From Halichondria panicea (Eukaryota > Porifera > Demospongiae > Suberitida > Halichondriidae), in the NCBI RefSeq assembly GCF_963675165.1, contig NC_087392.1:2247001-2311000 (forward strand): DNA of 64,000 bases. Direction: 5' to 3'. How positions within the stretch are numbered: position 1 is the first letter of the stretch; the number at the start of each line of letters is the position of its first letter. Shown one piece after another: positions 9,571-59,700 of the stretch. The position numbers and the translations under genes are program-made. The notes beneath the pieces are model-generated. The model did no database searches and was not told where the DNA came from. It worked only from the letters and a program-made list of their open reading frames with translations.

Positions 9571-12500
9571 CTATATTGAGTAACATAAACTTGGTATTGG
9601 GTAATAGTCATTTATAGCTGAGTATAATTTATGTTGATAGTCTCTAAGGAATGTCTTGCATGCACGACTGGTTCCTTTAGGGTGCCGATGGGATACGAAT
9701 ACCGGGAATGCCCGGGGATCCAGGTCGAATGCCCGGGGATCCAATGAAGGGGGGTCGAATGGTAGGAGTCTTTATGGTCCTCAGGGTGAACACTAGAGGG
9801 GGTCTGATGGTGGGTATGGAACACACGGGGGTGGAGTCACATGAGCTCCAGATCTTGCGACGACTGAAACTGGGGAGGTTCCAACGCTTTGAGAGTTTGC
9901 TCCATCGCTTCTTAGAACCCCAGTAAAACTTGGGCTACAAGGACAAATAAAGTATAGTGCATGGTTTGTAGAACAAAGAATAATGTTCAGTATATTGCAT
10001 GGTTTGTAATAGCTAACAGAACATTACATACAGTAAATTCCAATAGTTACTACATACTGGAAAGATCTTGATTTTTCTTAGCTGGTAGTAAGCATAGATC
10101 TCAGCATAGTTGTTGGGCCAGCCGTGGTATACGTTGACACAGGCTTTGACCTTCTGGGTGGCATATCGGCAGTAGTGTATGCAAATCTCAGGCTCTAGCT
10201 CGTACGTGAAGCTGGCTGCAACCTCCACTCCTCCTCTCACCACCAGCTAGAAGGACAAACACACAGTGCATTATCACATAATTATGGTATATTAATTGTG
10301 CACAGCATGGGGAAATGTAACTAAGTGCACAGGCGACTTTCACACACTCACAAGTATTGTGGCACTGGCTCCTCCCTCTGCCCTCAGAGTGAGACTAGGA
10401 ATGAGACTGGCACATGCCTTCACCGACGTCTCGCACACTGACACTTTCACTTTTAGTCCGAGCTTGGCAGTCATGCCAATATAGAAGTCAAGTGTACCAA
10501 CATAGATGAAAATGCTGTACTTAAATCGGAATATCTTGATGGTTGTACTGTACAGATTCTTTGTGAGGGTGTTGCAACCGGAGGGTAGGGTGCCAGCTTC
10601 ATTAATGAGTGTCTTGCCAACAACTTTAGCGTAGATCTTCTGATAAATGCTGTTCCCTGTTCTTTGACGTAAGAACTCAGCTCTCAAAGCAGTAGCAGTC
10701 TTTCCAAAAGCATATCCCTTAGCAATCACTTTGGCAAACAATTTATACCCGTTTCCATTTGGCTTGATACCAGCAAATCCACCGGCCGCCACTTGTGCAT
10801 ACACTTTACTGATACCAAACTTTTTCCCCCAGATGTACGCTTTGTGTTTAGGATGATTGATGACATCATTTCTCCTTGAGGAATAGCTAGCAACGAGGTT
10901 GTAGATAGAGCTAGAAGCATCCCAGTCAGATCCTCTACGCACGCGAGCGTCATTGACGTCATCTCTTATGTCGTATGTCTCATCTTCATCAACAGGTCTC
11001 TCGATATTTTGAAGGACATTATTGTATTCCATTGCACGCTTTGTTCCGAGTTTCTGAAGGTAGTCCATCACTAATGAATGCAGTTTAGAGTCCTCGAAGA
11101 AGCCAATGGACGCTAGAGCATCGACGTATGTATCATGTGAGTCTTTGTCCTTTACTTTATCCAGTCCTTCGATCAACATTTGCACAATAGCTTCAACTTG
11201 ATCCTGGAACTGAGCTGAGAGGATGACATCTTTTAATTGTTCCTGTACCCTTTGATCGACTGAGTGGGCCTTGAGAGCGTTTATGGATGCCAGTTGTATA
11301 TCAAGATCCTTACTCTTCAAATACTTCAACACCGTCTGTATCGTCAGTTTACTGTCAGTGTTCCCCAACGCATGTATGTTATGAATGAGGGGGTGTATCT
11401 TCTTACTGGAGTCAACGGTAGCCTCCAGACGTTCCAGTCGATCGCTCAAATCCTTAACTACGGAGGTTTGTATTCCATGCTCTTTATCGCTCGCCAGGGC
11501 CCCATAAGCCAGCAATAGAGGATCCACACTGGTTGGAGAAGAGTCAATCGCATTCCTCACCATCTCAAGAAACTCGGGACGAGGGTTTCTGGTGAAAGCA
11601 ATGTGCGTGATGATACCATTTTTTTCTTCTTGGTCGACAGAGTCATAGTATGACTTGAGAAGAGCCTAGAAGGAATAAAACATGGATTATTATAGCTATA
11701 CCTTCCGGTTAAGCACATACTACCACTTAACAAACAGATACCGTATTACTAATATTTTGCGAGTGAAAAACCTTTGCGAATGAGCCAAATCAGCAGAAAA
11801 TTTTACCCTTTGCGATCTAACTATTGCGCTCTGCATGGCAAGGATCATGTGTAATTACTAGTAGGTTTCGCAGATTATAAATTGTTGTGAATTTATCAAC
11901 CATCGTAAAGTTCGCAAATGTTTGATGCTCGCAAAACATTCTATAATTAAAATATCTAACACTCAGAACACAAACAGCAGTAGTAATTTAAATCCACATA
12001 CAAAATCTAGGATTAAAACTTCATTATGCTATAAACCAAAGGGCAATTTGCTTGTATTCACCATTTGAGAGTCAAGGTGCCCCTCTGTAGCAAGAAGTGG
12101 GTAAATGAAGCTCCTCATCTTCATGTCTTCTATCTTGTCTGATCCCAGCAGCTGAGGGGAAAGTAGATATTAGAAGATGTGTCTGTTCTAAGAAGCCAAT
12201 ATCAAATCACTTTAAGTGTACTGTCTACATTCTGTTTCTGTCAATGCAACAACAAGCAATATAGATAATAATATCAACCTTTTCCAAGAAGGTGATAACC
12301 TCCCTGATTGCAGGCTTGACTCCTGGTGGTGGCTGGTACTCCCCCTCCAGTTCAACCAGCTGGTGGAGACGATCGGCTGAGCAATGAAGCATTCAATTGT
12401 GAACACCCACACATTAGTTAGGACTGAACACATTATTTTGGTTAGGGTGTTCAACCCACAATGAATAGTGTAACAACATTAGACAGCCATAAACACAATG

Positions 12501-14970: not shown

Positions 14971-15194
14971 TCACAGGTGTGTTGAATGGATAGAGAGGGG
15001 CGGCTTGAAAGAAGCCAACTGTTGCTGGAAGGTGAGGAGGTCACCATTTGCTATATCGAAGGCCTTGAACAGGTCAACATTGTACTGTCTGCACTCGTTC
15101 TCATAGAACTGCAATAAGAGAAGGGAACAACATGAAATTGTGGACATTCAGCAAGTTCTTAGAAAGAGAATACATAGCACCACACACACACACA

Positions 15195-15253
<59 letters not shown>

Positions 15254-19616: not shown

Positions 19617-19698
<82 letters not shown>

Positions 19699-38417: not shown

Positions 38418-41217
38418 ATGCCAATGGCTCTGAAGAATGATCTTACAGCTTTAGGATGGTTAGTAGTCTTGCTTATCATCAGTGCTGTATTCTAATAGTG
38501 CTCCCTCTGTAGGCACCTCTCCCCAGAGGGTCTGGTCAAGTGTCAGGAGGTCTGCAAGGAGAAGGGATGGACTCTCAATGTTACAAACATTGTCAAAGTC
38601 GCTCTAGATGTGAGCCATAGATACTTTAATTTATAGTATCTATGTGGAGCTCTCCATTTTATAGGACTGCTAAGATTCACACGTAAAATTCTGAACCATA
38701 TTTTGATGCATGAATTGATTGTACTGCACTGAAATGCTTATCATGGTTTGTTTTCTCACTTGCTCATAGATGGATCTTCGTACTGTTGGAGATAACTCCC
38801 TACCAGTTGATGTTGTACGCTCCATGACTGGGGAAGTGGTGGGCCCCCTAGTGCTCCAGATACAGAAAGTGAAGAACGTAGCGATGCCCTCTAACAAGCA
38901 GCACCTGCCCTCACCCAGCAGGAGGATGCTTAGGCTCCAACTCACCGATAGTGGTGAGTACATGAGTGCTATAGAGAGCGATGGAGCTATCGACAAACTA
39001 AGGTGAGTGATTAAATGCTACAAGAACGCAATTCATACTGAGTAAATGGTTCCTCTCAAGTAGTGAAAACGAGTGTTATGCAACGCAATAGTTGCTATAT
39101 TGTTGTCTTGTAGGTACGTCAGATCTACAGATATTGACATGCCAAAAATGTTTTTCTTGTCTGTAGTCCAACGACTGCTCCCGGTACAAAACTCAGACTA
39201 AAGGGCAACGTGAGGGTGGTCAATGGGTTCCTCCTACTGACCAGAGGGGGAGTGGAGGTGCTCGGTGGACAGGCTGAAACTCTGCTCAAGAAATGGAACC
39301 TCAATAAGGTACCGTATAGCGGGTAATTTTCATGGGGCAAAATATTCGTGGTTTTCGTGGTTGGAGGTCTGACCACGAATATTTTACCCACGAATGAAGC
39401 GACCTTGCCTACCTTTACCTACAATCCAAGCAGCAACTACGAAAATATTACCCACGAAATGTCTCAATATTGCTGAACCACGAATATTTTGTCCCCCGAA
39501 AATTACCCGCTATACGGTAGTTGTGTTTGTTGTTGTTGCTATGTACTGTTCTCATTACGCTATACGGTAGTTGTGTTTGTTGTTGCTGCTATGTACTGTT
39601 CTCATTACCATTAATTTTTTTCCTTTTCTTTTTTAGGGAATGACTGATATCAGCCGTAGCAGAACTGGCACGGCTAGTGGACCCCCTCCCTTTGTCCCAT
39701 TAAGAGACAACCATGGGAAGAGCAATAGCAGAGACAATCGTCCCACTAGCAAGCAGACAAATGAACTCAGCAAAACTACTAACACTCGTAAGCTCACACA
39801 ACAAAACCAACAGGATCCTGATAAACCAACTCGTACCCAAATGGACAAACCTGCAGAAAGATTACAGCGAAAACCCGACAGAAAACCTGAAGCTAGCTTC
39901 ACCAATAAATTACCAACTAAACAAGAGGATGCGACAAGGCGACCGAGACAAGATAGAGGCAGGCAACGAGAAGATGATGATGATGAGTATCAGCCCAGCA
40001 CCAGACCAACAGGAGACTATCAACTTGCAGACTGGTTTGGCAAAAAACTTAAACTGAGCGACAACAAGACGTCCAACTGGGAAGATGCAATAACATACGA
40101 TGCAATGGCCGAACAGCTAGAAACTTCATCACTAACCACAAATCACTCCCATCAGCACCACTACAGAAATGATGCATACAGCAGGAGAGGCAATGAAACA
40201 CAGGTACGCGAGGGAACAAGATATCACCGCGGTAGAGACAGACAAGAAAGAACAGATGGTTTTGAACGAGCTATGCGTGCACCGAATGAAAGGTCTCATC
40301 GTTCACAACAAAGTGAGTATCCAGGGACGACCAACGAGAGCACCAGACCAACAGGAGACTATCAACTTGCAGACTGGTTTGGCAAAAAACTTAAACTGAG
40401 CGACAACAAGACGTCCAACTGGGAAGATGCAATAACATACGATGCAATGGCCGAACAGCTAGAAACTTCATCACTAACCACAAATCACTCCCATCAGCAC
40501 CACTACAGAAATGATGCATACAGCAGGAGAGGCAATGAAACACAGGTACGCGAGGGAACAAGATATCACCGCGGTAGAGACAGACAAGAAAGAACAGATG
40601 GTTTTGAACGAGCTATGCGTGCACCGAATGAAAGGTCTCATCGTTCACAACAAAGTGAGTATCCAGGGACGACCAACGAGAGACACGGGACTCACAGAGA
40701 CAACAGAACACATATACATAATGCTCGAGGCAACAGAACTCACAATGAAAGAGGCAGCAGAACACACTATGATCGAGGCAATAAAACACATTATGATCGA
40801 GGCAATAGAACACATTATGATCGAGATAAAGGAGCCTCTTATGACAGGCCAAAGTATCACACTACAACAACCACTGCTCACACTGATGATCGAGGCAATA
40901 GAACACACTATGATCGAGGTAAAGAAGCCTCTTATGACAAGCCAAAGTCTCACACTATAACAACCACTGCTCACACCAATGGCAAGCAACAACAAACAGA
41001 CAAACAGTATGGCGGCCCTGACGGTGATAGCAGAAAACCATACCTACCGCAGGAGTCAAGCAGACAACAAGAACAATGTTATCAGCCCAAACGAAAAGAA
41101 GAGGCCCCCGTCGTTAAGGAGGTGTGGATGCAATCATCAGCGTCATCTAGTGATCATTGGGACTGGTTGGGATCTACCACGACCGCTGTACCCTTCTCTG
41201 CCAAACGACAGAACTGA
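38418..41217 (+). CDS. TDRD3: TDRD3-like protein without Tudor domain
   Basis: Five exons (38418-38458, 38513-38609, 38770-39002, 39167-39308, 39637-41217) encode 697 residues. Residues 1-170 match the N-terminal OB-fold of TDRD3, which binds topoisomerase III beta: LTALGWHLSPEGL, DLRTVGDNSLP, GPLVLQIQKVKNVA, RMLRLQLTDSGEYMSAIE, GTKLRLKGNVRVVNGFLLL, VLGGQAETLLKKW. SGPPPFVPL follows, as in vertebrate TDRD3 (GGPPPFVPF). The remaining roughly 500 residues are low-complexity, rich in Arg/His/Asn/Thr, with a tandem 114-residue duplication and RGNRTHYDRG-type repeats. No UBA or Tudor domain is seen before the stop, and the next gene is unrelated, so the domain is not merely missed downstream. It may still be an RNA-binding topoisomerase partner. 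RMI1 is a less likely alternative. Confidence 0.8.
39312..39517. mobile_element. MITE, CCGTATAGCGGG family, intact ends, at a splice donor
   Basis: A 206-bp element flanked by TA (39310-39311 and 39518-39519). Left end CCGTATAGCGGGTAATTTTC, right end GAAAATTACCCGCTATACGG. It lies in the last TDRD3-like intron and begins 3 bases after the exon end. The donor GT is at 39309-39310, so the left TA duplication overlaps the donor. Confidence 0.93.
39509..39608. repeat. 50-bp tandem duplication spanning the MITE end
   Basis: Units 39509-39558 and 39559-39608 differ at one base. Each starts with the last 9 bases of the MITE (GCTATACGG) followed by flanking TAGTTGTGTTTGTTGTTG, so the duplication happened after the insertion. 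Confidence 0.9.
39997..40680 (+). repeat. apparently perfect in-frame 342-bp tandem duplication
   Basis: Units 39997-40338 and 40339-40680 are identical as far as can be read by eye and encode 114 residues twice, each with DYQLADWFGKKLKLSDNK and EGTRYHRGRDRQERTD. It lies in the large last exon of the TDRD3-like gene. Confidence 0.93.
40700..40960 (+). repeat. degenerate RGNRTHYDRG coding repeat
   Basis: About seven imperfect 24-30 bp units encode RGNRTH(Y/N)(D/E)RG variants, plus two copies of a longer block (SYDRPKYHTTTTTAHT and SYDKPKSHTITTTAHT). It is part of the TDRD3-like C-terminal half. The high Arg/Gly/Tyr/His content suggests RNA binding or condensate formation, by inference. Confidence 0.85.
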
Positions 41218-41335
41218 ATTAAATTTAAACTATTAATTAGTCTTGTTTATACATAATTATTATGTTATGTAGCACAACAAACAGTCAACAAGTATTGACA
41301 AAGTATAGGGGGGAAAGGTCAAAGGCGTGGCTTGA

Positions 41336-41965
41336 ATGGCTAACAAACCAGAAGATGAAGAGACAGTGTCCTCCTCTAGCTCTGGTGCTTCAAGATCTGA
41401 GCCAAAATCTGACAGCCAGCTTGATGAGAAAGAGCTGGAGAGGTAAACCAATTAATGCGCCCCCTAGAACTAGAATAGAACAGTGGCTATTATTTTAATA
41501 AACGACATTATGTTTTGATGATATTATAGATTAGCAGTTGAAGCTATTTTGCAAGAGACCAAACAATCGAAGTCCAGAGCAGAGCGATCAGGAGTGTTGG
41601 GATGGTATGTGCCAACCTTTCACTTCAAATCTTTTCAGATTTGCGGCAGCTCTTTACAGGATCAATTGATGTTGTATAAAATTAATACTCTTCCAGGCTT
41701 GTACAGTGTCTCCCCACATCACAGGCAAAGGTGCCCTGTGCCCCGGGCCAATAAAAGGTTCCTCAACAGTATGGTTCTGTCAGATGTGACCAGCAACAAG
41801 CGGACAAAGACTACACCCTCTATAGCTCGAGACCTTTCTCCTAAAAGAGACCACCTACCCAGCAAGAAAACAAACTGTGACCCACCCAACAAGAAATATA
41901 AAAAAACTCAAAGTTGTCAACATGAGACATTGAAACACAAACAAACAAGAACTGATAAACAATAA
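41336..41965 (+). CDS. POLR1D isoform-2-like small protein
   Basis: Three exons (41336-41442, 41530-41604, 41725-41965) give 140 residues. The core DEKELERLAVEAILQETKQSK, then RAERSGVLGW, then QRCPVPRANKRFL, aligns with the alternative product of vertebrate POLR1D (ELERKAIEELLKEAKRGK, RAETMGPMGW, MKCPLASTNKRFL), with the first splice falling right after ELER as in the vertebrate locus. The C-terminal half is Lys/Ser/Thr-rich and disordered-looking. The chosen acceptor at 41724/41725 keeps the frame; the nearer AG at 41694-41695 gives an early stop. No exon for the AC19 polymerase subunit is seen nearby. Function is unknown in any organism as far as I recall. It starts 118 bp after the TDRD3-like stop and converges with the LRRK-like gene, 90 bp apart. 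Confidence 0.75.
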
Positions 41966-42014
41966 CATTGTACATTGTAGACTGTTCACATTGTAGACTG
42001 TTCACATTCCACTC

Positions 42015-42020
42015 TTTATT
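42015..42020 (-). terminator. poly(A) signal of the LRRK-like gene
   Basis: Minus-strand AATAAA 36 bases after the stop codon at 42056. It lies within 50 bases of the stop of the convergent gene ending at 41965. Confidence 0.5.
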
Positions 42021-42055
42021 ATCATACAATGTCATTTAATACACAGTTCATCAAC

Positions 42056-45000
42056 TCAATTTTGGTGTCTTCTAACAGTTACGTAAGCCACGTCATCGAT
42101 AATTGAATCCCTCACTTCAGTGCCACTCCCACTCGTTAGTTCCACCTTGCCATACACTGTTCCTTGACGTCTACTACTATCGTCAGTGGCAACAATCACT
42201 GGTTTGGGGGCTGTGGAGGGCTTGAGATTTGCAGCAGGGCGTCGAAGAGAGGGAGGTTTAGGTCGAACGGGGGGTGGGAGCACTGAAGAGGACTGGTTTG
42301 GTTTGGAGGGCAGAATAGGTGGTTTGGGTTTTGCATAGACTCCAGGGGGCACGGCAGCAGCTGTAGAGTCGACAATGGAGCTGCCATTTGTCTGAGTGCT
42401 GTGTGTGTGCATCAGTAGTTGAGTGAGCTGTGACTGTATTAAATCGAAATGCATACAACATGTACATGTACAGTGAAATCCCTCTATAATGAACACCATT
42501 GGGGAACAATGTTTTGGCCTTTATACAGAGGTGGCCTTTGTTGAGAGGTTGTTTTGTACACAAACTGGGACGTGGGTGCCTGGCCGTTATATAGCAGCTG
42601 GCCTTTATTCGGAGGTGGTTGTTAACAGAGGCTCCACTGTACATGACCTTGAGGGAACATTTGACACAGACCATACATGTATAAATGCACAGAGACTAAA
42701 CAAAACATGTGGTAGTTGTAGCATGTGCTCGTAGCATTTATTGTAGCTAAAGGTAAATATAAACAATTGTATACCGTATAGCGGGTTATTTTCGTAATGG
42801 TGGAAATATTCGTTTGTTTGTATCAGTAGAGCACCTACAAAAATTAAACTACAAATTGTTCTGGCACAATAGGTTCAACGTCACTAATTAAAAATACTGT
42901 TTAAATGGGTAGTTTGTACGAAAATGTGCACAAACGAAAATTACCTGCTATACGTGTACGCAGTAAGTTACCTTGGCTTTGCAGGCAATGGAGGTGGTTT
43001 TTTCTTTCCCAAGAAGTCGTCTACTGTAACCATAATATCTTCATCTGACAGCTGTCTAGTAGGTTTAGCCCCGAACGATGGCAGGGGAGTGTTAAGCTGT
43101 TTTAGAGCTACCTGCACAGCTCGCATGGTAACGTAAGGGTCAAAGTCTTTACATCTGGCTGAGTCTTCCAGCTGAAGGTCGGCAGTTGCCATGGTACTGC
43201 GACGATAGTCTGGCATTTGAGGTTGGGGCTGATGCCTCAAAGATTGTGTACGCAGAATGTTATTGAATGGGTAGTCATAATCGAGAGAATCTTCACTATT
43301 ATCACTGGTGGTGGCTTGGCTCTCACCAACTTGCTGCAAATTACCATCTTTGTTGTTCTGTGTATTAACATCAATTTTGTGACTTGTCAGGGGAGCACTT
43401 TCTTTGTCAGTTGGGATAGGAACTGGTTCTTTCTTCTTTTTAATAAACTTGAAGAACTTTCGCTTTTTCTTCGGTTCAGTAGACGAGCTCTGAGCTGTGT
43501 CACTTGGCGACAGGTCGTCAGGCCTTGGGGGTAGAGGTGGAGCTTGTTCACTACTTGATTCTGGAATGGTATTGAGAACAGGAGGGTCAATTCTGGGTAG
43601 TGTGCGCATTTTTGACTGAATGGGGGACTCAGCCACGTCAGCTGACCAAGTGTTGGCTCGTAACATAATTTCTTCTTCGTCAGAGTCTTCAATTGGAGGC
43701 ACGTCGTAAATATGTTGATCATCACAGTTCTTCATGTAGGCTATAGGTTGACGACAACTAATTTCTTCCACTGCTTCAAGTCTCGACTCAGTCATGCCCT
43801 CCAACACAACAGTATAGAGTCCACTTTGCTTGACAGAGCTATTGCAGTTGTCTAGAATAGAATGCTTCACGTTGGGCAAGTCTTCTTTTATTCCAGTTCC
43901 CACACTCAATACCAGAACGGAATCAGGCACTGTTGGACGTAATGATGAGAGTGTGTCCGTCTTGTTTTGAGATGTATTGAGCATTTCACTGGCCGAGAGG
44001 ACGGTCATGTTCCCCATATAGGAGGGATGGAGTAGGAGGAGCTGACGAACGTGGGAGCAGTGCACATGGAGGTGAGAGATGAGACGAGGGGAGGTGGCCA
44101 CGGCACCAAAGATAAGAATGTGTCCAGTGTTCAAACCAATCCAGATAGTGTCCAACACTACCCTCAAAGAATACACCCACACCTTGTTAGGGTCTATGGA
44201 GACAATTGTGGCACAGCTGATTGTGTAGAGGAGCGCTCCAGTCCAGGAGTTGAGCACTTGCACTTGATCCGTACGTCTGAATGTGATCCAAAGTGTGTCA
44301 GGTTGCTCCTCGTCTTCATAGCCAGGCTCAGAGAGCACAATAGAACGGATTTCTGCTTTTGCAGTGATTTCAATCTTTGCTTCTTGGTCTAAAGTATCTG
44401 GATGCAATCGATACACGGCATTTCGAGTAGCACACATCACAGAAGCTTCAAGGGGCTCAATACTTTTGAATTCTTCTTCGTGGCACACAACTTTTGTGTG
44501 TCTCGGCTCAGTTGGGATATTCTTGTCAGTAACATCATAGATTTGCAGCACTCCATTCACAAGGCCTAGGTACACTGAGGTAGGGCTCACACCTACAACC
44601 GCAACGTGATGACTTAACGAAAACTCATTAATGAACTCCAGCTTGCCCAAACTTGAGTAGACACGAACTTTCTTGCTGGAGAAGCTCACCCAAAGCTGAG
44701 ATCCCACGCACCCCATACAAATCACAAACTCACTTGGCAGCTCAACAGTTCGATTCACTTCAAGGTCAGGTAAGGAAAGGTGGGTCAGATAAGCTGTGCT
44801 TTGACCAGTCAGTTCGCCACTGCAAATAAACACATCGGTGTGGAATGAGTTCTTGACTCGAGTAAATTTTGCTGTTGCTGCATATAATTCGTGATTTTCA
44901 TTGATGAGATTTCCATCTTGAACCAGTGTGTGAAGAGGTGACATCATAAATTCGACAATCTTGTTGGCATATGGCCGTTTAAAGGCGTCCGGGTTCCAGC

Positions 45001-48000
45001 ATTTTGCGAGCAGCTCACAGAGAAAGGGAGCTCTATTTCTGACTGGGTTCAGCGACGGTCTGTCACAAGAGGTGAGTGAATCACTTTGCTTCTGGAAAGG
45101 AGAGTTGGAACGGACATGAACAGTACTTCGGGTGATGATCTCATACGCCACAAAACCAAATGCAAAAATGTCCACTCTTTCATCGTACTCGCTAGCTGAC
45201 ACTTGTAACATCTCCGGGGCAGGGAAAGTACCATAGCAACCAACACCAATACCTTGAAAGACTCCATAGCAGGCATCTGAGAATCCGGCAAGTTTCACGT
45301 TGACATCATCATTAGTTGAGAGTGAGTAGACAAGGATATTGCCCAGGGACACGTTGCGATGGATCACATGATATGAATGTAGTGCCTCAAGGGCTTTGGC
45401 AAGCTGGTATACCATTCGCAGACGTACAATTCGAGGCACAGAGATCTCTTTGATACTGATGACTTCTTCGAGTGAGGACCACTTGGCAAATGGAAGCACA
45501 AGGCAGAGAGGCTCCGGGCACATGCCGATTATGCTGAGAAGGAACGGACACTTTGCTCTTTGCATGTGAAGAAACACTTCGAATTCTGTCCACATCTCGA
45601 GTACTGGTGTAGATTTGAGTACATTGGGATCTTTACCAGTAGTGTTTGGTACGGGTGGGGGGTATGGTTTCACAGCAACAAGAGTATTGTTGTACTGGCC
45701 TTTGAATATGGTCTCCGTGGGAGCAGGACTGAGACAGGTGGCCCTGTCACTAGAGTTGAAACTGACAGAGTTAGGGGGGATGAAAAAGTCCGCATCAATG
45801 TCTTCCTGGATTAAGTCTGGAACGATTTTTGCAATGTGGACAATCTTCTCTAAGTGTTGGATGCACTTGACCCCAACACCTTTGGACAGTGCGTACAGAC
45901 AATCTTGAAATGAGATAGAGGGGACGTTGGGTTTCTCAATGTGTATACAGTAACTGCAGGGCACCCACACTTCAACAGTTCTCCAAACAGTGGGGTACCA
46001 ATTCTTGAGCAGGCTGTCGACAATAAAACTGAGGATGTGCATCGTGGTGTGGCCAAGTTTTGTGTTGGCAACTCGAATCTCGATTCCTTGGTGAAACGGC
46101 TCAGTATTTATATCGATCCTCTCAATACTGTACACCAAATTGCAGGCGTTCATCCAACACACGATACCGTTCTGCCAATACCTCCAATCCACGGCTCTCG
46201 GCGGTGGGGAAGATGCAGTGCCCGAGGAGACAAACGAGATGTATTTGGTAAGACTCTCCATGTTGATGAGTAGGTGTGTGATAAGTCGGCCCATTAGTGT
46301 GATCGGTACAAGCGTACAGGTGTACTGTCGACGTAGGTCACCAGATGAGAAGTTGTTGAAGATGAGGTCAGGCTGTGGACTCAACATGGAGGGGAGGAGC
46401 CACCTTTCGCTGCTCAAGGCCAGGGAAATGGCATTTCTGTTGAGAACATACTGTAGTGCTGTCGGTATGGGGAGTCGTATGGAAGAGCTTCCCAGCAGAT
46501 CCACGAGTCCTTCTTGTCTCACCACAGCAGAGGTAGAACTAGCCATTAGGAGAGAATTTTGAGAGATGACATTGCCAAGCACGTGGCAGTACCACTGGCG
46601 ACTGAGTACATAGTAGGTTTCGGAGTCCTTCGAACAAGGAAGATGGACAAGAGTTGCCATGGAGCTGAGGAATTTAATGAGCTCTGGGAGCTCATAGTGA
46701 CTGCTCAGGTCATGCGACGGCATAGATCGAATCAGTTCCCAAAAATCCCAACCACTCACAAAAAGCGATCGATTGTCTTTTTGCATTTTCTCGGATTCGG
46801 TTTTGAGAAGCTTGTCGCAATTGTAGTAGCTGCAAGGCACAAAAGAGGTGGTCTTTATTCTCTCGGCAGCCCGACTGACGGCATCCAAGAACATCTGAAC
46901 TGATGTCTCCCCTCCAGTTTCCACGACACTTTCACCCCCCTCCAGCAAGACGTGATGAAGATGGATATGATCACTGAGATCCTTCCATAAAGATTCGGCT
47001 ATTTGATTCTCCACGGCCAGCTCAGAATGTGCGTACAGAATGGACTTCCAACAGGCGACAACAATAATCGGAGAGCTTGGAGAGTGAACGGAGAGATGAC
47101 GCAATACAATGTGGAGGTCGTTTGCGTCTTGCTTGTTGTGACAGTCCCACGGAACAACGTAGAGAGCATTTGGCATGAGAAACACTTCGTGGAGGAATAA
47201 AAACTGAGAGGGACTAGCGAACTTCAGAACGCTACAATTGAGTTCTGAGGTGACTAAAATGCTCATAATTCCATCCAAAGCTTTCGATTGCTTGGGAAAA
47301 CCGATGACTTGAACTTCATAGTGCGTAACCGTCTGCATTGATTTGAATCGATCTTGAAGGAATTTAAGCACAGAGCCCCTTTGTCGGTCAGGGTCAGGGA
47401 TGTTGACAGCATTGTGTACATTCTCTAGGGAGAGGGCTTTTAAATGCTTGAGGCCGCCAAGCTCGTACGGAACATGCTTGATCTCGCAATTGTGACTGAT
47501 ATCGAGTGACTCGAGAAAACGCATTCCAAATATTGACTTTGGGACGGCTTGGAAATGGTTGCCACTGAGGTCAAGTTGTGTGAGCTTGGAGTGTGTGAAG
47601 TAGTCGGGGAAAGATGTCAGTTTGTTGTGAGATACATTCAGGACGCATAGAGATTCTGAGACACGGTCCATGAGATGTTCTGGTAGAGATGCTATTTTGT
47701 TGTGAGACAGATCAATGCTCTGGATCCTGTCCATACAGAATAATTCAGAGGGAACGAAAGTAAGTTCATTCGATGCTACTTGCAGCTTTTCCAGATTATT
47801 AAACTTGAGCACCTCTGCCGGTATCTGTTTCAAAGAATTGAACGAGAGACATATTAAGGTGAGTGTGGAGTAGTCGTGTTGTGTTAGCCAATCAGGCTCT
47901 ATATTTTCCAGTTCAAGATGGTGCCAATCGATGAGCTTTGCTTGAGGGGATTTGGCAGTCTTAGAGAGGAGCTTAGCAGCTGCTTGTATGTGCTTGTACT

Positions 48001-49978
48001 TGAGAGCCACCTTTATAGGTACAGCTACTGACAGAGTACCATTCTCGATAAGGGGCATGAGGATATGGTTGTACTGCATGACCGAGGAGTAGCGAGGGTG
48101 AGAGCAGACATCATCTTCGTCCCAACAGAGGAGGAGGTCAATGGCTGTCTGATCGTCTTCTCGAGCAGCTTGACAGAGACGAACGAAGGCTAGGATGTGG
48201 TTCATACGTGCACTGTTTTTGATGCACTCTTCAAAATTGTCAGCTCCTGCTTTTATTAACAGTACAGCGAGTCTATGGTTTCCAAGTTTGCAGGCGATTC
48301 GGAGCGAAATGTTGAGCTTCTCTTGTTTCCATTCGGACAGCTCTTCTGAGAGGCGTGTCTGCTTCTCCAGCTGAGTGAGAGCCTATGGAGGAGAGAATAA
48401 TGGTGGTTAAAGTTGGGTTCAAAGTACTAGTATGTACATGTAGGTGGCATTCAAACAGGGAGTGTCCGTAAAGTAAGTAAGGGACTGCAATTAACTAATA
48501 ACAACATACAACATTAGACTACACAAGCTAATTAATAATAAAGGTGTTCCCTCAAAACTAGGAGCTCATACTGAAAGCTTTTTCTCAACGACACGACATG
48601 AGAAATTGTACAATTTCCATAGAAAGCAGGGGAAAGCACAAACGTTATGGCTTCAAAAGGTGGAAAATCAACTGAAATGCATACACTAACTGCGCTGGTT
48701 ATTACCAAAACTGCAACTAGTATGTACACAAGTCAAGCGGCTTTAAAACCACAGGTGTGTACCAGGTGGGTGCTATAGCAACACACTCTGTTATCAAGCA
48801 TTAGAAATATGAACACCTCAGTATCAACAAGATAAGATATAGTTACTACCTTCCTATAAGCTTTGGCTGTAAACAAACTGTCTTGCCATCATGCATACCT
48901 TGTTACAGGGCTTGTACCTTGTACTGACAAAGTAAGAGAACAAGGGCATAGTACACTAAATCCCTTGAAACATAAGAGGTGCTTGTACTGCATTTTTAAT
49001 TATTATTGTAACAAGCTAAAGTGCATGTACAGTCTGCATGGCGTATAAAATGAACAAGAGCTTGTAGCACATGGTGTATAGAATGAACAAGAGCTTGTAC
49101 ACGTTAGCGTAACAGGTTAAGCCACAGCTTGTTACCTGAAGTAATGACTTAATAAATTCCAATAAGGATTGTATATCATTCTAGCCTCACCTCGGTCATT
49201 TTCAATATGTTTCCATTCACAGTTGCATTCTCCACTTCAGCTACTGTTATTGCGACTACCACTTGCCAGCGGCCATTCTCCAGGGAAATGTCTTTAGCTG
49301 TCCGACACTTTCGATCCACAGCACTCAGAGATGCTCCACAATCCACCAACGCCATTACCGTGTCAACGTGTCCCCTCTCGGCAGCAAGATGGAGGGAAGT
49401 AAACGCAGGTCCTTTTTGTGTCCTGACATTGATGTCCAAAAATTCACACTCATCGTTTAATAGTCTGACAACATCAGCTCGTCCTGTACAAAGAGAATGA
49501 ATGATGTTCTGTAGCGTGTCTGCACTATGTAGATCTAGCATTGTGGTGTGATGTACGCCATGAATGGTCACAAGGGACTCTTGTGTGTAATCTAACTAGC
49601 CATTGTTATAAATTCATAATGGGCATCCAATGTCAACTACACATTAGAGAAATCATCATTTACCTTTGTGTTCTAAAACAGCAAACATCACAAATTGCAA
49701 TCACGTACTTGTGTTTAATTGCTAAATTACACACGACTCTAGTGAGATAGGTAACAGTATGCATGCATGCTACCTGACATGGCTGCCTCGTGGAGTGGTG
49801 TGCATCCGTTAACTCCAGCAGCTCTATTGACCACCGTCTCAGTGATAGTTTCGTTGAGATAGCTCCTAACAGCCGATAGGTCACCTGACCTGCAGAGTCG
49901 ATGTAGCTCACTTCCAGCAGGATGCAAGGAGAGGTGCCTGTTTCGACCCGCCCAACGAGATGGGTCCAGCTCAGTCAT
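42056..49978 (-). CDS. LRRK-like (Roco family) scaffold with inactive-looking GTPase and kinase
   Basis: Four exons (49978-49774, 49483-49191, 48382-42972, 42398-42056), 2,083 residues. Order: ankyrin-type repeats (1 to about 220, NGCTPLHEAAMSG, FTSLHLAAERGHVDTV), leucine-rich repeats (about 316-500, LTQLDLSGNHFQAVP), a Roc-like region (about 515-690), COR (about 690-1000, SGWDFWELI, YYVLSRQWYCHVLG), a protein kinase fold (about 1045-1310), a beta-propeller (about 1320-1620) and a proline-rich tail. This is the LRRK1-type layout. The Roc P-loop position reads GFPKQSKAL, lacking GxxxxGK(S/T). The kinase keeps the beta-3 Lys (VAVK, 45668-45670), but the HRD motif is HRN (codon 45353-45355) and DFG is GFS (codons 45278-45286), and no glycine loop is seen. 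The tail has YDVP, PLPPRP, PPPLPAKP and other SH2/SH3-ligand-like motifs. The exon of 5.4 kb is unusually long for this locus. Confidence 0.85.
42471..42639. mobile_element. pogo/Tigger-type MITE
   Basis: A 169-bp element flanked by TA (42469-42470, 42640-42641), with ends CAGTGAAATCCCTCTATAAT and TAACAGAGGCTCCACTG. It contains GAACACCATTGGGGAACAAT, typical of pogo-derived MITEs. It lies in the last intron of the LRRK-like gene. Confidence 0.88.
42774..42956. mobile_element. MITE, CCGTATAGCGGG family
   Basis: Flanked by TA; left end CCGTATAGCGGGTTATTTTCG, right end CGAAAATTACCTGCTATACG. The interior differs from the 39312 copy. It lies in the last intron of the LRRK-like gene, next to the pogo-type MITE. 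Confidence 0.85.
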
Positions 49979-50752
49979 GATCTGCAGACATGCACCAAAC
50001 CATTCATTGTTATTTAAACATTTATGCCTACATCTAGCTAAATTTAGGTACCTCAGCTCAGCTCAGTCTCAGCTAGCTCAACTCAGTTAGTCACACTCAT
50101 AGTCATATGGCATTAACTTACTGCAGCCTTCTACGACGTGGTAGCTCCAAACAGTTGATCTTTCTGACGGCAGACAGCTAGCTGAGCTTGCAAAACAAGC
50201 AACCTCATAAACTCACTGTGTGGCATGGAAATAATTGACCTTGCAAAAAAGCTAAAAGCTTGCTAAGCCTAAGGAAAACTACGCAAAAGTTCATCACGTG
50301 GGGAGACATATGAGCTAGCAGCGTGGACGTACACACAGCTAGCTAAACCCGAAGTTCAAGCCAAGTTGCTGTTGAACTTGACACTAGAGTTGGTGCACGT
50401 ATGCTGGAAGAAGCTAGCTGATATCCATTGACTGTTTGCATCTTGGACATTGGACTTCACCGGAGGAGTTAAAACTCTAGGTGCATTTTGCAAAGTGGGC
50501 CAAAAGGTACATTTTCAATTTTGTGGGTGGAATCACTGTCTACCGTTTCTGCACTCACATCAGATCCCTGGCACCGTAATAATTATAATGCTTCCTCCCA
50601 CATTTTGGCATTACTATCCTTTAATCCCTAACATAGCAGTGCAAATGTCTGGTGCATTTGTAGTAATATTTTTTGAGTACATTGTATTGATACCTGCACA
50701 CCTGCACACCATAAAAATATGAGCTGCAATTAACTATTGCAGATAATTAAGA
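49979..50752. promoter_or_regulatory. divergent intergenic region, LRRK-like and PCM1
   Basis: 774 bp between head-to-head starts. A CACGTG E-box lies at 50295-50300. Repeated CAGCTCAGCT/AGCTAGCT sequence is seen at about 50050-50100. No gene or TATA box was found. Confidence 0.4.
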
Positions 50753-53700
50753 ATGGCGACACCGCATCCATCCAAGTTGAGAGGTGCTCTCAATCGTTCC
50801 CTCCCTGCTAAACCCGGAGCGTTGGTCAGAGCTGCACGGGCCAATGGTGACAGCAATGTGAGCAGCTGTATAATTGCTATCATAGTCTATAATCCGTATG
50901 TTCTTTAGTGACTAGAGAGTGTACCCCGTATCACATCCGGTCCAGTAATTGCACATTGTCATTGACAGTGTGCAATTACTTGTCGAGTAATTACACACTA
51001 TCAATGACAGCGTATATATTATTTTCGAATAACGGCTGTGGCTGAAAATGTTAAGAAAACTGCCGAGAACTTCATCATAAACGATTAAGTATGGTTACTT
51101 GTGCAATAAGGGATTAATCGCATTTATAACAAGCACTGGCAAGGTTAATAGCACTCGGCTATATATGCCTCGTGCAATTAGATAGAAGCCTTGCCACTGC
51201 TTGTTACTCGTGCTACATGTGTATTAATCCCATTATTGCCAATACTATTACCGTATAATTATATAGCGGCAAATTTTCGCAGGTGCAAATTTTCGTGGGT
51301 TTCGATTTCGCATGCCAGGAAACGCGAAATTTTGTACCTCACGAAAATGTCCCGCTATATGGTAATTATACTAACAACTAGAGCACTGAAGTGCTAACCC
51401 TCGGCTGTTGACATGAATATAAATAGAGGAGTGTTCAGTTATAAGAAGCAACAAACCACAATTCCAGCTTTCAGAATTCTTGTCCACTGATCTTGATAAA
51501 AGATCACTTCAGCTGCATATAATTATGTAGATCTACCTCGAATAAAGGCTGCGTGTTAGCTAGCTAGCCAACGTGCAAGTTCAAGCTTCTTAGCTTTTGT
51601 TCAGATATTACAAACAAACAACCAAACGACTACTACGCCCGCTGGCCACGGCACGGCCTCGGGTAATAGATGCAGCAGTCTATGAATTTTATCCAGAGCA
51701 GTAAAGTACATTACCATTCCCCTATGCGCAGATGAGTGAGGACTCGTATAGTGGGCGTGTCCACATATCCTCCTCTGTCCCCCGGACACGGTTCACAGCC
51801 AAGACCTCCCGCAGTGAAAGAGAAGGCATAGAAAACCTGCGGACCAAGATGACATTCAGTGATCATAGCGTGAGTTGTGGACAGCAAATAATTATAGGGG
51901 TGGCTATTTTCCATCCTCTATCTCAATTCTCAACACACACACTTTTGCAGCCCAACATGTAGTGAACTAGGCCAAGGAGGTTTTTATTTTTGTCTAGAGA
52001 TTAGTACCAACTACCACCGACCAGTGTGGGCATCTCCCTGCACATCGGGCATGCTAGCTAAGTAACTGTGTTGTTGGTAGTCTTTAGCCTTTAGCGCAGC
52101 AGTTGACAGCACTGTACCAAACCGACAATATTTAACAATTGTTGTTGCACCTGTTATTGTTCCCTGCAGACTGAAAGCTCTGCACGATCCACCCCACGGA
52201 AGAAGCAATCCAATCTGCCACTGGAAGGGATCGTGTCTCCACGAGGCCACACCTCTCTACCTAGTTACGTTCTAGATGCCGGGAGGGACGACGGGGCATC
52301 AGAGGGCGAGCTCACCAATTCTGTCACTGTTCAGGACATACTAGTCAAACTGGACTCTGTCAAGGTACAGTAGGTGATGTTTGTACTCGTTGTCAGAGAG
52401 TTGCGTGGACAACTGTCATAGATTTGTATCTAAACACATTGTTTTAAGAGCTCCATTACTATTACACGTAGTAGTACTCAAATGTTTCTGAAAATGGATG
52501 ACCAATACCCAGTATTTGAACAGTCAAGTTAGCTGCTAGTGAAGCAGTAAAATACAAATGCAATTCCTTCTAGAACTATTTAAAGGAAGCGGAGTCCTTG
52601 CAGAAGCAGCTGCAAGACAAGGTCTCTGAGGTAAGACTCCTCCCCTACTAATAGGATGTAACTACCCCCCCCTCCCCATAGCCTGGAGCTTCAGCTCAGG
52701 TGGAGAAGTTGAATAAACTGATTCGGGAGCTGAGACAACAGGAGACCTCCTACCTGGCAGTCCTGCTTAGGATCATAGTAAGACACAGTACGAATTATGA
52801 CTTCGATAAATGATTGTGTCTTACTCTACATGTAATGGGGAGGGTATTCTCCATTAGCATGGAAATGTATATATGTGGTCTGTGTTACCATGATAATTGA
52901 GTGTATGACGTGCCCGATAGGACCGCGGAGAGACTTTCAGCCAGCTGAACACGACACAAGAGGAGAGTGGATCTGAGATCAGTGAGGACGAGGACAGTCT
53001 GGAGGGAGACGAGGCCCTCAGCCTCAGCCTCAGGGCAGAGCTACAACAGCAGGTAGGGTTGTCTGTCACCTGTGCCTTGCATGGTTTAACTTTCAAATCT
53101 GTCATTGTATATAAAAGTACTTCATACCTGTGTGTGTGTGTGTGTGTGTTGACTGTAGAAGTCTGAGGAGCTGACCACTGAGCAGGAGGAGGAGTTAAGA
53201 GTGCTGAGACAGCAGCAGCAGATGCTCAGAGACCTTATTCAACAGCAGGAGAAGGTTAGAGCATCGTGTTTTGAGAGAACCATGGAGATTTGTTAGCTAC
53301 AGTATAGTACATGTGTATAAACCGTTCACACGATTATTGTCGTCAACTCTACATTGCTCAGCATTCGGTTATAGATGGTTTGCCATTGTTGCAGATCAAA
53401 GAGCTTGAAGGGAAACAGGCAGAGCTTCTTCGTCGCAGAAATATGGCTCAGAAGGAGTTAGTTGATGCTGAAGCTAAGGTTTGTAAGCTTTAATTAAACA
53501 GCTCACATGAACTGTTTATCCTTTTTAGACTCAAGAGTATCGGCATCTAACTGAGGCATCTGCTATGATGAGTGAGGGGAAACCCTTAGCTAACGAACAG
53601 CCTGACAAACCACCGGAAGATGATCAACAAGAAAATGAGGTGCGTTAATTTGTGCAATGTTTTTGAATGAATTGCACTTACTATTATTCTACCACTGTAC

Positions 53701-56700: not shown

Positions 56701-59700
56701 TATGGCTACCAACAGCAGCAGCCTGGCGTAACAGACCATCTCTCCAGCGGAGGCTCAAGTCTCCTCAGACCACCTCCCCCTATGCCGATGGTCATGTCGC
56801 AAAGCCCCTACCCCCCACGGCCTGTATACCAGCCAGGATGGTATCACAATCCCTCTCCAATGGCATTCTCATTCTCGCCTCATTTCTCGAGCCAGTTTGG
56901 GACAAATGGCATGTCTCCATTCCAAGGCTGGCCTCATTTCGGTTCCACTGGGTACTCCCCTCAAGTTGTCCCCCCACACAATGTTCAGCAAAATCCATCC
57001 ACATTCCACCCTGGCGCTACCAATGACGGAACTCATGCTGAATTCCCAGAGATTAATTTCCGAGATTTGCTTCTGAATAGCCCGTCTGGAATCACGTCAG
57101 CGTCCGTACAAGTGCAAGCTCCATCGACTCCGCCCCCAAGTGCCCCGCCTAGTGTGAAGAGTCTAAACAGCAACAACAACAACACTACTCAACTTAGAGT
57201 ACCAACGACTACTGTAGGCAGCTCCAATTATGCGGAGGGCATGCCAACTAACAGTGAGAGGGAGGGAGGCAACAAAGATCAAGACGAGGAGTCAATCTCT
57301 TCAATGCCTTTCAGTGCACCAGACGATACTGAAGTGTGAGTTGGTGATAATTATTATACATATTGCTTATTCTTTGTTTCCAAGTCTCTACTATCTGTTA
57401 CCCCCACAGAGCTCAGTCATCCTCTGAGGTACTGGTGGAGGGTGGAGCTGGCTTCTCGGTGTTTGATGCCCTCAGGGACACCATCTACTCGGAAGTGGCC
57501 ACCCTCATAGCCAACAACGAGAACAGACCACACTACCTGGTCAGTCACATGACGTGTAATCGTTACGACCTAGCCATGTTACAGCCACTGTTAACTCGTA
57601 AGCTGTTAGTAAGGTTCTGAAATAGTGGCTCTCTTTGTATGTGAACTCTTGTGATCGACTCTGTGTGTTTTGTAGGTGGAACTGTTTCGAGAGCTTCAAT
57701 TGGTTAACTCGGACTATCTTCGTCAGCGAGCACTCTACAACATCCAGGACCTGGTTACCCGCTTCCTGACGGGGGAGGATGAAGCCACACCCACTCATGG
57801 ACCCGTGAGTCACCCCCAATAGTTTGACTGCCCATCTATGTAGTGTACAGCCTGTATGTACCTTTTGAGCTTACCATATAAAAAGTATAGCATACATGTA
57901 CTGTTGACTTTTAAGCATACAATGTACAATCATTATATAAAGTGCAGCATACTAGACATTTTCAATATTGGATTTTATTTACCATATCACTTTCTGTATC
58001 ACTTTCTGTCCCATTCCGATACCAGCAGATTGCTGATTCTTTGGAGCCAACGTCCAGTGAGAGTGAGGGCACCACTGAGGAAGAACCACCCCAACCCCAG
58101 CCCTCAGAGCTCACCAGCCAGGTGTACGATTACGTTGAGTTAGCCCAGAGTGGCAGCTCCCTCTCCACACCGCCTTGTCCCGACCAACCCTTTGCTGCTG
58201 ACGATCTCGGGGACACTGTGATACGACGAGACAGGGCTCTGGCTAAACTTGTGAGCGGTGAAGAGGAGGGTAGTCCCGCGTTACAGCCCCCCGTGGTGAG
58301 TCCCGGACCCCTGGTAAATGAAGAGGGTGTGCTGGAGACATCCTTTGAGCAAGAACCACCGGTACGTATGGATTGTTGTTATTTACGCTGGTGGTGTTAC
58401 ATATGGTATCACTGTAAGTGTGTGTGTGTATGTGTAGTTGGAGTGGTGCTCTAATTCAAACATTTTTGTGTATAGGGAAATACATTTCTGGACACAAAAC
58501 TATTGGACGAACAAATCAAAGATGTTATGACTGTACGTTATATGTACTGCCCCCCCCCCACCTCCCCCCACATGCTGTCATTGCCCAGGCAATACTACAG
58601 TACCTCTCTTGCTACATGTACCCCTCACCCCCTCAGGAGGTGATTCCTATACTCAAGGCCAACATGGCTGCCAGCTGCTGCCCCTCGTTGCTGGATCAGA
58701 TCAAGAACACTGTGTTGGATCTTGTGCTGAAAAAAGAAAAAGAAAGAGTAAGGAAAAACGTTGTCACGTGTGGCAGGTACCGGTACATGGCTCATTGTGT
58801 CCCTCTCACAGAACCCTGAATTCTTAGAGACGCTCACGAAGCAGATTGATTCCACAGTCACAGAAACTTTAGAGAAATATCGAGACAAGAAGTGAGTGAT
58901 TCCTGGTCTTTGTGTAATGCTGTATCCACTGTTGTGTCACTCAGTTTTAAGGACTGTGGTGAAGACATGTTGGTGGACCTCAGTGAAGTGCTGTTCAATG
59001 AGCTTTCATTCTTCAACCTCATGCAGGACCTCAGAGAGTAAGCCCCTCAAATTAGCAGCCAATAATTATAACGTTATGACTCCCCTCAGCCATCCCCAGC
59101 TGAGCTCAGACTTTAGGTCAGTCACATCGTCCCAAACCACCACTGAGAACGACGACACTGGTGACGAAACTAAAGCTGGGCCGATGGATGCTCTCCTCCT
59201 GCAGGCACTCACTCTACAGGCCAGTAGGAGTCTGGTGGATGAGGAAGAGGCTCTTGGAAAGGTCAGTGTGAGGGGCATGAAGAGAGTTGACCTTAGCTAA
59301 GGTTGTTAGTGCAAACATGTAGCTTGCAGCATTGTACATGAAATGTACGTACATATAATGTAGGCATCATTGTAATTGTTAGGGGCTACTGTGTGTTTTT
59401 TTGTTTGAATAGTGAATAATGTTTTCTTGCGCAGATGAGGGATGATGAGTTGGCTAAGACGTGGGACCCGAGTCCACAAAGGTAGTGGTAGTGTGCACTG
59501 TACACTGATGGTGATTATCTGTCAATCTTTCTGCTTCAGTGATGAAGAAGACATAACAAGAGAAGAGCCTCCTACCGCTTCAAATATTACCCCAGAGGCC
59601 ATAATCGATTCACCCACGGAGGAACCTTTAAGCAATCCTGAGGCCCCAATCACTCCACCTACAACTACCCCTCAACCTAGTGTGGGAGTTGAGGGAGGGG

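Follow-up and report, generated by a model that had tools for sequence, protein, structure and literature searches.

A LRRK-like protein of the sponge Halichondria panicea with a putative pseudo-GTPase and a putative pseudokinase domain

Introduction

How much of the action of LRRK proteins is catalysis, and how much is assembly, is an open question. Conformation alone alters the localisation of LRRK2, wild type and G2019S forming filaments only with a kinase inhibitor (PMC6660771). The question is raised in an unusual form by a locus in the sponge Halichondria panicea, on contig NC_087392.1, positions 2,247,001 to 2,311,000. This whole stretch of 64,000 nucleotides is called the window here. 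An initial annotation, made from the letters alone, had proposed that a gene at 42056-49978 of the window encodes a LRRK-like protein in which both enzymatic domains are apparently dead. Is the gene intact, is its product a relative of the LRRK proteins, and are both active sites lost? The answer favoured below, with some reserve, is that a LRRK1-like (or LRRK3/4-like) animal Roco protein has turned into a double pseudoenzyme that would act as a scaffold. Such a natural LRRK, with the full architecture and neither active site, would reveal the surfaces that evolution keeps once chemistry has been dropped. It would also be a non-engineered control for scaffold function.

The Gene Model

The coding sequence was assembled from four exons, with splice sites picked by eye from the genomic sequence alone.

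49978..42056, minus strand: coding sequence, 4 exons, 6252 nucleotides joined, 2083 residues, single terminal stop
49774..49978, minus strand: exon 1, start codon and first ankyrin repeats; GT donor after ATGTCAG, phase fitting exon 2
49191..49483, minus strand: exon 2, ankyrin repeats (Pfam Ank, 1.5e-15); AG acceptor and GT donor, frame carried on
42972..48382, minus strand: exon 3, 5411 bp, leucine-rich repeats (LRR), Roc, COR, kinase and propeller plus most of the tail; within open frame P0001
42056..42398, minus strand: exon 4, proline-rich C-terminal tail and stop; joined by matching phase

All introns are GT-AG with compatible phases, and an AATAAA lies downstream of the stop, at 42020. 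The rebuilt coding sequence matches exactly the span proposed initially and, like the initial model, has four exons. The single open exon of 5.4 kb is also as described: there is no stop among the 1803 codons of exon 3, whereas each of its five alternative frames has 61-124. This open frame argues against old decay. A tblastn search with P0001 returned only the self match, meaning that no second LRRK copy was found in the 64-kb window.

The placement of five domains in one exon (42972-48382) is an observation in its own right, the neighbouring formin-like matches being on separate open reading frames (ORFs) of a few hundred bases. One could speculate that the large exon arose by intron loss via a cDNA copy, possibly also the origin of a spare LRRK copy.

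Domain Architecture and Nearest Relatives

The order Ank-LRR-Roc-COR-kinase-propeller, as read in the initial annotation, is borne out, and is followed by a tail of 371 residues. Models for Ank (1.5e-15; Ank_2 at residues 25-123), LRR_8 (6.3e-20), the kinase (3.9e-21) and COR-B (5.3e-8) all pass their Pfam cut-offs. The annotation had called for a profile check of both Roc and kinase; the kinase passes it, but Roc stays under the cut-off (0.044).

47408..47872, minus strand: leucine-rich repeats; LRR_8 in three stretches, matches to SHOC-2 and the LRRK1 LRR
46418..46735, minus strand: COR-A, weak; Pfam 0.025 / 0.007, below cut-off
45815..46339, minus strand: COR-B; Pfam 5.3e-8
46196..46240, minus strand: COR-B loop ISFVSSGTASSPPPR, shortened to about 15 residues when counted by hand, versus 34 in LRRK1 1046-1079
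45854..45967, minus strand: COR-kinase linker, CxxC...C...CxxH retained, by alignment to LRRK1
43964..44722, minus strand: C-terminal beta-propeller; WD40_2 passes its cut-off on the separate piece, Beta-prop_LRRK2 (1.7e-4 / 1.1e-5) stays under its own

A sequence search of the PDB ranks human LRRK1 first (224 bits) and LRRK2 behind it (147 bits). In phmmer, LRRK1 aligns without interruption from the Roc G3 position into the propeller (P0001 residues 384-1246). Searched separately against the PDB, the COR piece matched LRRK1 chains only: all three matches are LRRK1 (three distinct sequences, best 1.1e-14) and there was no LRRK2 match. The Roc-COR tandem of the Roco family is thus seen in a COR-B above cut-off and an uninterrupted LRRK1 alignment, with Roc and COR-A below cut-off. 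The LRRK order ends in a propeller recognised by WD40_2, the LRRK2 propeller model scoring below its cut-off. On its own, the propeller piece has no LRRK among its PDB sequence matches (six of six are weak ones to PCNA, best 1.2e-5), and so the propeller is assigned from the profile models and from the far end of the alignment with LRRK1.

One part of COR-B departs from LRRK1. The COR-B loop of LRRK1, residues 1046-1079, bears F1065, which plugs the back pocket of the kinase (PMC10643122). When the loop limits described there are applied to the LRRK1 alignment, the sponge loop falls short of the LRRK1-subfamily feature, namely a docking Phe in a loop longer than 27 residues: about 15 residues are present and the Phe is poorly alignable. 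This is why the protein is called LRRK-like. By its sequence, the short loop would fit a protein that has no kinase activity left to restrain.

The Degenerate Roc Domain

What has become of the GTPase? Three motif positions could be located by alignment to LRRK1.

46853..47329, minus strand: degenerate Roc, putative pseudo-GTPase, approximate boundaries; Pfam Roc 0.044 (profile 19-115 of 119), LRRK2 Roc 0.048
47276..47302, minus strand: P-loop position, GFPKQSKAL (LRRK1 GPPRQGKST)
47213..47233, minus strand: G3 position, SVLKFAS (LRRK1 NVWDIGG)
47042..47062, minus strand: G4 position, VVACWKS (LRRK1 VVGTHLD)

The loss of the P-loop at GFPKQSKAL had been noticed initially and reappears in the LRRK1 alignment. 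Judged by that alignment, this degeneration is not total loss, as the motif still has its first Gly and its Lys, though no longer its second Gly and its Ser/Thr. The domain as a whole is worse damaged than had been claimed, with G3, G4 and switch I also affected. The distance from the P-loop Lys to the G3 Asp position is 20 residues here and 48 in LRRK1 (chain numbering), and hence about 28 residues over switch I, probably also beta2, are absent. The loss is an in-frame deletion, and GTP cycling is less compatible with it than with the point changes. In other words, of the G motifs by which a Roco protein binds GTP, P-loop, G3 and G4 are altered, and switch I has been deleted, a pattern of motif loss that points to a pseudo-GTPase.

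Could an intact P-loop lie at another site of the protein, or in an exon missed by the gene model? This was ruled out by regular-expression scans, which found no GxxxxGK(S/T) in the full protein or in the three minus-strand frames of 41001-51500. Other strings found by scanning, NKTD at residue 1639 and DxxG at 437, 794 and 1955, are outside Roc.

The Putative Pseudokinase Domain

The kinase domain and its motif positions are as follows.

44903..45805, minus strand: putative pseudokinase domain (folded piece); Pfam 3.9e-21, LRRK1 81 bits, pLDDT 82.8 (see below)
45707..45733, minus strand: glycine-loop position, LSPAPTETI (LRRK1 LGQGGSGTVI), from alignments
45668..45670, minus strand: beta3 Lys (VAVK), retained, from alignments
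45584..45586, minus strand: candidate for the alpha-C Glu (residue 74 of the piece), depending on the alignment
45353..45361, minus strand: HRN, catalytic Asp to Asn, with the Lys two residues further changed to Ser, from alignments
45278..45286, minus strand: GFS, Asp of DYG/DFG to Gly and Gly to Ser, from alignments
45212..45220, minus strand: APE, retained, from alignments

Relative to LRRK1 (residue number = chain number + 19), GQGGSGT is replaced by SPAPTET, D1386 by N, K1388 by S and D1409-Y-G by G-F-S; K1270, N1391 and APE are retained. HRN, GFS and the missing glycine-rich loop are therefore all where the initial annotation had put them, and loss of the catalytic-loop Lys, as aligned, extends its list. 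The anchors that remain are the beta3 Lys, the Asn, the APE Glu and the helix-F Asp. The alpha-C Glu is ambiguous. It is retained as E74 when the piece is aligned by phmmer with LRRK2 or in the alignment with bacterial kinases (A3), and lost, its position being F78, by phmmer with LRRK1, or V77 in another kinase alignment (A1). Depending on the alignment, 28-32 residues separate the beta3 Lys from this position, compared with 37 in LRRK1. The long alpha-C region of the LRRK1 and LRRK3 subfamilies is thus present here; in LRRK2 the distance is 14 residues (K1906, E1920; PMC6660771).

Which positions never change in kinases with intact motifs? A3 comprises 62 of 80 loci. These 80 were kept from 427 confirmed matches to a further alignment (A2) in a genome contig collection, in records titled bacteria; 18 (eight further Corallococcus records and ten others) were dropped by hand before the motif columns were inspected. 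In A3, 48 columns are at least 80% conserved, and 23 of them are kept in the sponge protein. Eleven columns are invariant in 62/62 bacterial kinases. The sponge protein keeps eight of these (K46, E74, H143, H149, N156, G189, E198 and D212), and the three that it has lost are the catalytic Asp, the catalytic-loop Lys and the Mg Asp. Invariance of the Asp and Lys columns is partly built in, because DLK was part of one of the two patterns used for retrieval; the Mg Asp column is unaffected by that pattern.

The two spines, mapped from the LRRK2 positions given in PMC6660771, are occupied. Regulatory spine positions H149, F175, I92 and M81 or F78 are hydrophobic or His, and catalytic spine positions fall on A44, I157, L158, V159, L112, V219 and I223 (LRRK2 V1893 was left out). 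As far as alignment can tell, structural positions of the kinase (spine, APE and helix-F anchors) are retained and the residues that handle phosphate and metal are gone.

Intact motifs elsewhere were again sought by regular-expression scanning. The full protein contains no HRDxK-like motif and no D(F/Y/L/W)G. Of these two patterns, only the HRD type was also scanned for in the three minus-strand frames of 41001-51500, where it does not occur. This rules out an intact HRD at another place in the protein or in an exon that had been missed, and an intact DFG at another place in the protein. One GxGxxG string, GVGCYG at residue 1212, is in the activation segment and not in the N-lobe; a second, at 49359, is out of frame.

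Structure prediction had been suggested as a check, and the kinase piece is still predicted to take a kinase fold. AlphaFold2 with a 63-row alignment that includes the 62 bacterial kinases gave a predicted local distance difference test score (pLDDT) of 82.8 and a predicted template-modelling score (pTM) of 0.85, with a long alpha-C helix at residues 67-84. This model may lean to the canonical fold because the alignment rows are kinases with intact motifs; a model made without an alignment (pLDDT 32) was not used. In a Foldseek search of the PDB, BRAF took ranks 1-13 (best E 6.4e-16) and Dictyostelium Roco4 rank 14, and no LRRK1 or LRRK2 chain was among the best 50 of at least 2000 matches. 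HRN and GFS in a predicted kinase fold are what would be expected of a pseudokinase.

GFS deserves a closer look. D2017A alone inactivates LRRK2, while Y2018F and G2019S raise its activity (PMC6660771), and the F and S of GFS are at the positions of these two substitutions. Reading the Phe as activating calls for caution, as Phe occupies the middle DFG position in 59/62 of the bacterial kinases. That all three positions have changed suggests, at the level of sequence, a closed, inert domain.

The C-Terminal Tail

The tail (residues 1713-2083, 371 residues) carries short motifs of the kinds known to be recognised by SH3 and Crk/Nck-type SH2 domains.

42972..43744, minus strand: exon 3 part of the tail with YDVP, PPLPPR, polybasic KKKRKFFKFIKKKK, YDYP, YVTM and PPLPAK, from a motif scan
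43430..43471, minus strand: polybasic-aromatic stretch, possible membrane patch; runs of at least 4 K/R

Four types exceed their expectation in tail shuffles: K/R runs of at least 4 (three overlapping matches in two runs vs 0.08, p 0.001), YDxP (2 vs 0.11, p 0.005), PxxP (11 vs 6.05, p 0.02) and PxxPx(K/R) (3 vs 0.80, p 0.04). If real, these motifs would point to docking of SH3 and Crk/Nck-type SH2 partners and to membrane contact.

A Scaffold or Something Else?

The best reading is a nucleotide-independent scaffold or dimer partner, and the protein is probably a signalling scaffold rather than an enzyme. In this reading Roc-COR would still dimerise but would no longer be switched by GTP, and the pseudokinase, in a fixed and probably closed state, would serve as a docking face. 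The ankyrin, LRR and propeller domains would bind partners and the tail would recruit SH2/SH3 adaptors at the membrane. Output would then be set by partner binding or tail phosphorylation, and not by the protein's own catalysis. Absence of catalysis, a nucleotide-independent dimer and docking are things that we infer. The same applies to the last step of the initial annotation: its LRRK1-like architecture, two degenerate active sites (alignments) and intact frame (ORF) stand, while the purely scaffolding role stays inferred. Its case is strengthened by features that it had not named: the switch I, G3 and G4 losses, the lost catalytic-loop Lys, the short COR-B loop and the docking-type tail.

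Several observations weigh against the scaffold reading. The Roc (0.044), COR-A (0.007) and Beta-prop_LRRK2 (1.1e-5) models score below their Pfam cut-offs even on separate pieces, which is why the Roc fold is called putative. Roc also contains an NKQD string (residue 582), which the LRRK1 alignment puts between the strand YVVPWD and the G4 strand, off the G4 position. In the tail, the motif types were chosen post hoc and, of eight, four are below 0.05 with p uncorrected; YxxM (one, p 0.16), class I SH3 (p 0.56) and YxxP (p 0.09) are not enriched in the shuffles and YxN does not occur in the tail. Codon usage was scored over 12 blocks of 150 codons with a model trained on 1184 codons from presumed neighbour ORFs. 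Frame 0 outscored the two remaining sense frames in 11 blocks, but this is weak support because the best reverse-strand frame wins in six of the 12. Coding constraint would rest on one intact sequence. In the kinase, 25 of the 48 conserved columns are lost, so that the losses extend beyond the catalytic residues. What if the gene had simply been silenced recently, with relaxed selection eroding its motifs and no stop codon yet in place? The profiles below cut-off, the 25 lost columns and the reliance of any constraint on one sequence would all suit such a gene. It is nevertheless very unlikely, given 0 stops in 1803 codons, intact splice sites, a polyA signal, a switch I loss that is in frame and, among the invariant kinase columns, losses limited to the three catalytic ones. 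Sequencing or assembly error has a negligible probability: eight separate motif sites are changed and a deletion is in frame, there is no frameshift, and nothing was found in its favour.

The remaining point against the scaffold is that the domain may bind ATP, its beta3 Lys, and possibly its alpha-C Glu, being retained. These residues and the retained Asn would favour an atypical kinase that binds ATP through the beta3 Lys and performs weak or different chemistry beside a dead Roc; Table 2 of PMC5593906 gives WNK1, CASK and ErbB3 as pseudokinases that have kept activity. This is quite unlikely, as four functional sites (Gly loop, catalytic Asp, Lys and Mg Asp) are lost together and, in LRRK2, losing the Mg Asp is by itself inactivating (PMC6660771). 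Unlikely too, but with a real chance of being right, is a dominant-negative or allosteric role, in which the protein forms a heterodimer through COR/kinase with a second, active LRRK from the sponge's own genome and turns it on or off. There is an analogy in dead BRAF or KSR, which switches RAF. COR-B is among the better-kept parts, the kinase model is nearest to BRAF and Roco4, and BRAF that cannot bind ATP still binds RAF and acts as an activator (PMC6660771). However, the window holds no second LRRK, and the partner is hypothetical.

A more specific form of the scaffold can be imagined, in which evolution has locked a LRRK closed: the F and S of GFS occupy the Y2018F and G2019S sites, the Mg Asp has been lost and little is left of the autoinhibitory loop, giving a permanently "on" shape with "off" chemistry and a membrane hub via the SH2/SH3 tail. 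This form is rather improbable.

Other Features of the Window

Elsewhere in the window, a plus strand ORF (39637-41214) of low complexity contains a perfect tandem duplication at 39997-40682, with a 342-bp unit, 100% matches and a length divisible by three; a 93-bp repeat lies just downstream. The duplication is either very recent or an assembly artefact. On the minus strand, 33257-35619 matches a diaphanous-type formin (Drf_FH3 5.6e-17, Drf_GBD 1.2e-7, on separate ORFs), and a 441-residue ORF at 10343-11665 has sub-threshold Vitellogenin_N and HEAT_2 matches and is perhaps a large lipid-transfer protein. A weak match to PCM1_C, of a pericentriolar protein, is below cut-off (1.1e-4) at 57915-58451 on the plus strand. 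CA dinucleotide runs occur at 15181-15251 (35.5 copies) and 19619-19696 (39 copies).

Comparison with Known Systems

Human LRRK1 is the closest comparison. The sponge protein shares with it the domain order, the long alpha-C region, the CxxC...C...CxxH linker before the kinase and the best PDB match. Unlike LRRK1, it has lost P-loop, G3, G4 and kinase chemistry together with the switch I segment, its COR-B loop has about 15 residues instead of 34, and its tail of 371 residues is rich in motifs (the LRRK1 tail lay outside the comparison). With human LRRK2 it shares the Roc-COR-kinase-propeller core, and loss of the Mg Asp recalls the inactive D2017A. However, no armadillo region was found in the gene model and the COR piece has no LRRK2 match in the PDB.

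Four of the five LRRK clades are described as metazoan only, and the LRRK4 clade as cnidarian (PMC10643122). Compared with the descriptions in that paper, the sponge protein resembles LRRK3 and LRRK4 as a metazoan LRRK putatively outside LRRK1/2, and LRRK3 in its long alpha-C; its COR-B loop of about 15 residues contrasts with 20-30 in LRRK3 and inserts of at least 200 in most LRRK4. No LRRK3 or LRRK4 sequence was among the PDB matches listed. In a viral contig collection P0001 had no pattern match, and the 7 and 44 pattern matches of kinase alignments A1 and A2 included none that was confirmed.

Among pseudokinases of different families, ErbB3 and KSR use a kinase fold for allostery. ErbB3 has HRN, as here, but unlike the sponge protein keeps DFG. 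The nearest parallel for Roc is provided by the pseudoGTPase domains pG1 and pG2 of p190RhoGAP, also Ras-like domains with degraded G motifs in a larger signalling protein (PMC5593906), although these are not Roco and have no kinase. No Roco protein with both a pseudokinase and a pseudoGTPase was among the matches listed in open-licence PMC (titles and abstract starts, with subscription journals largely outside). Pseudokinases and pseudoGTPases are each already known; their combination in one Roco protein would be the new element.

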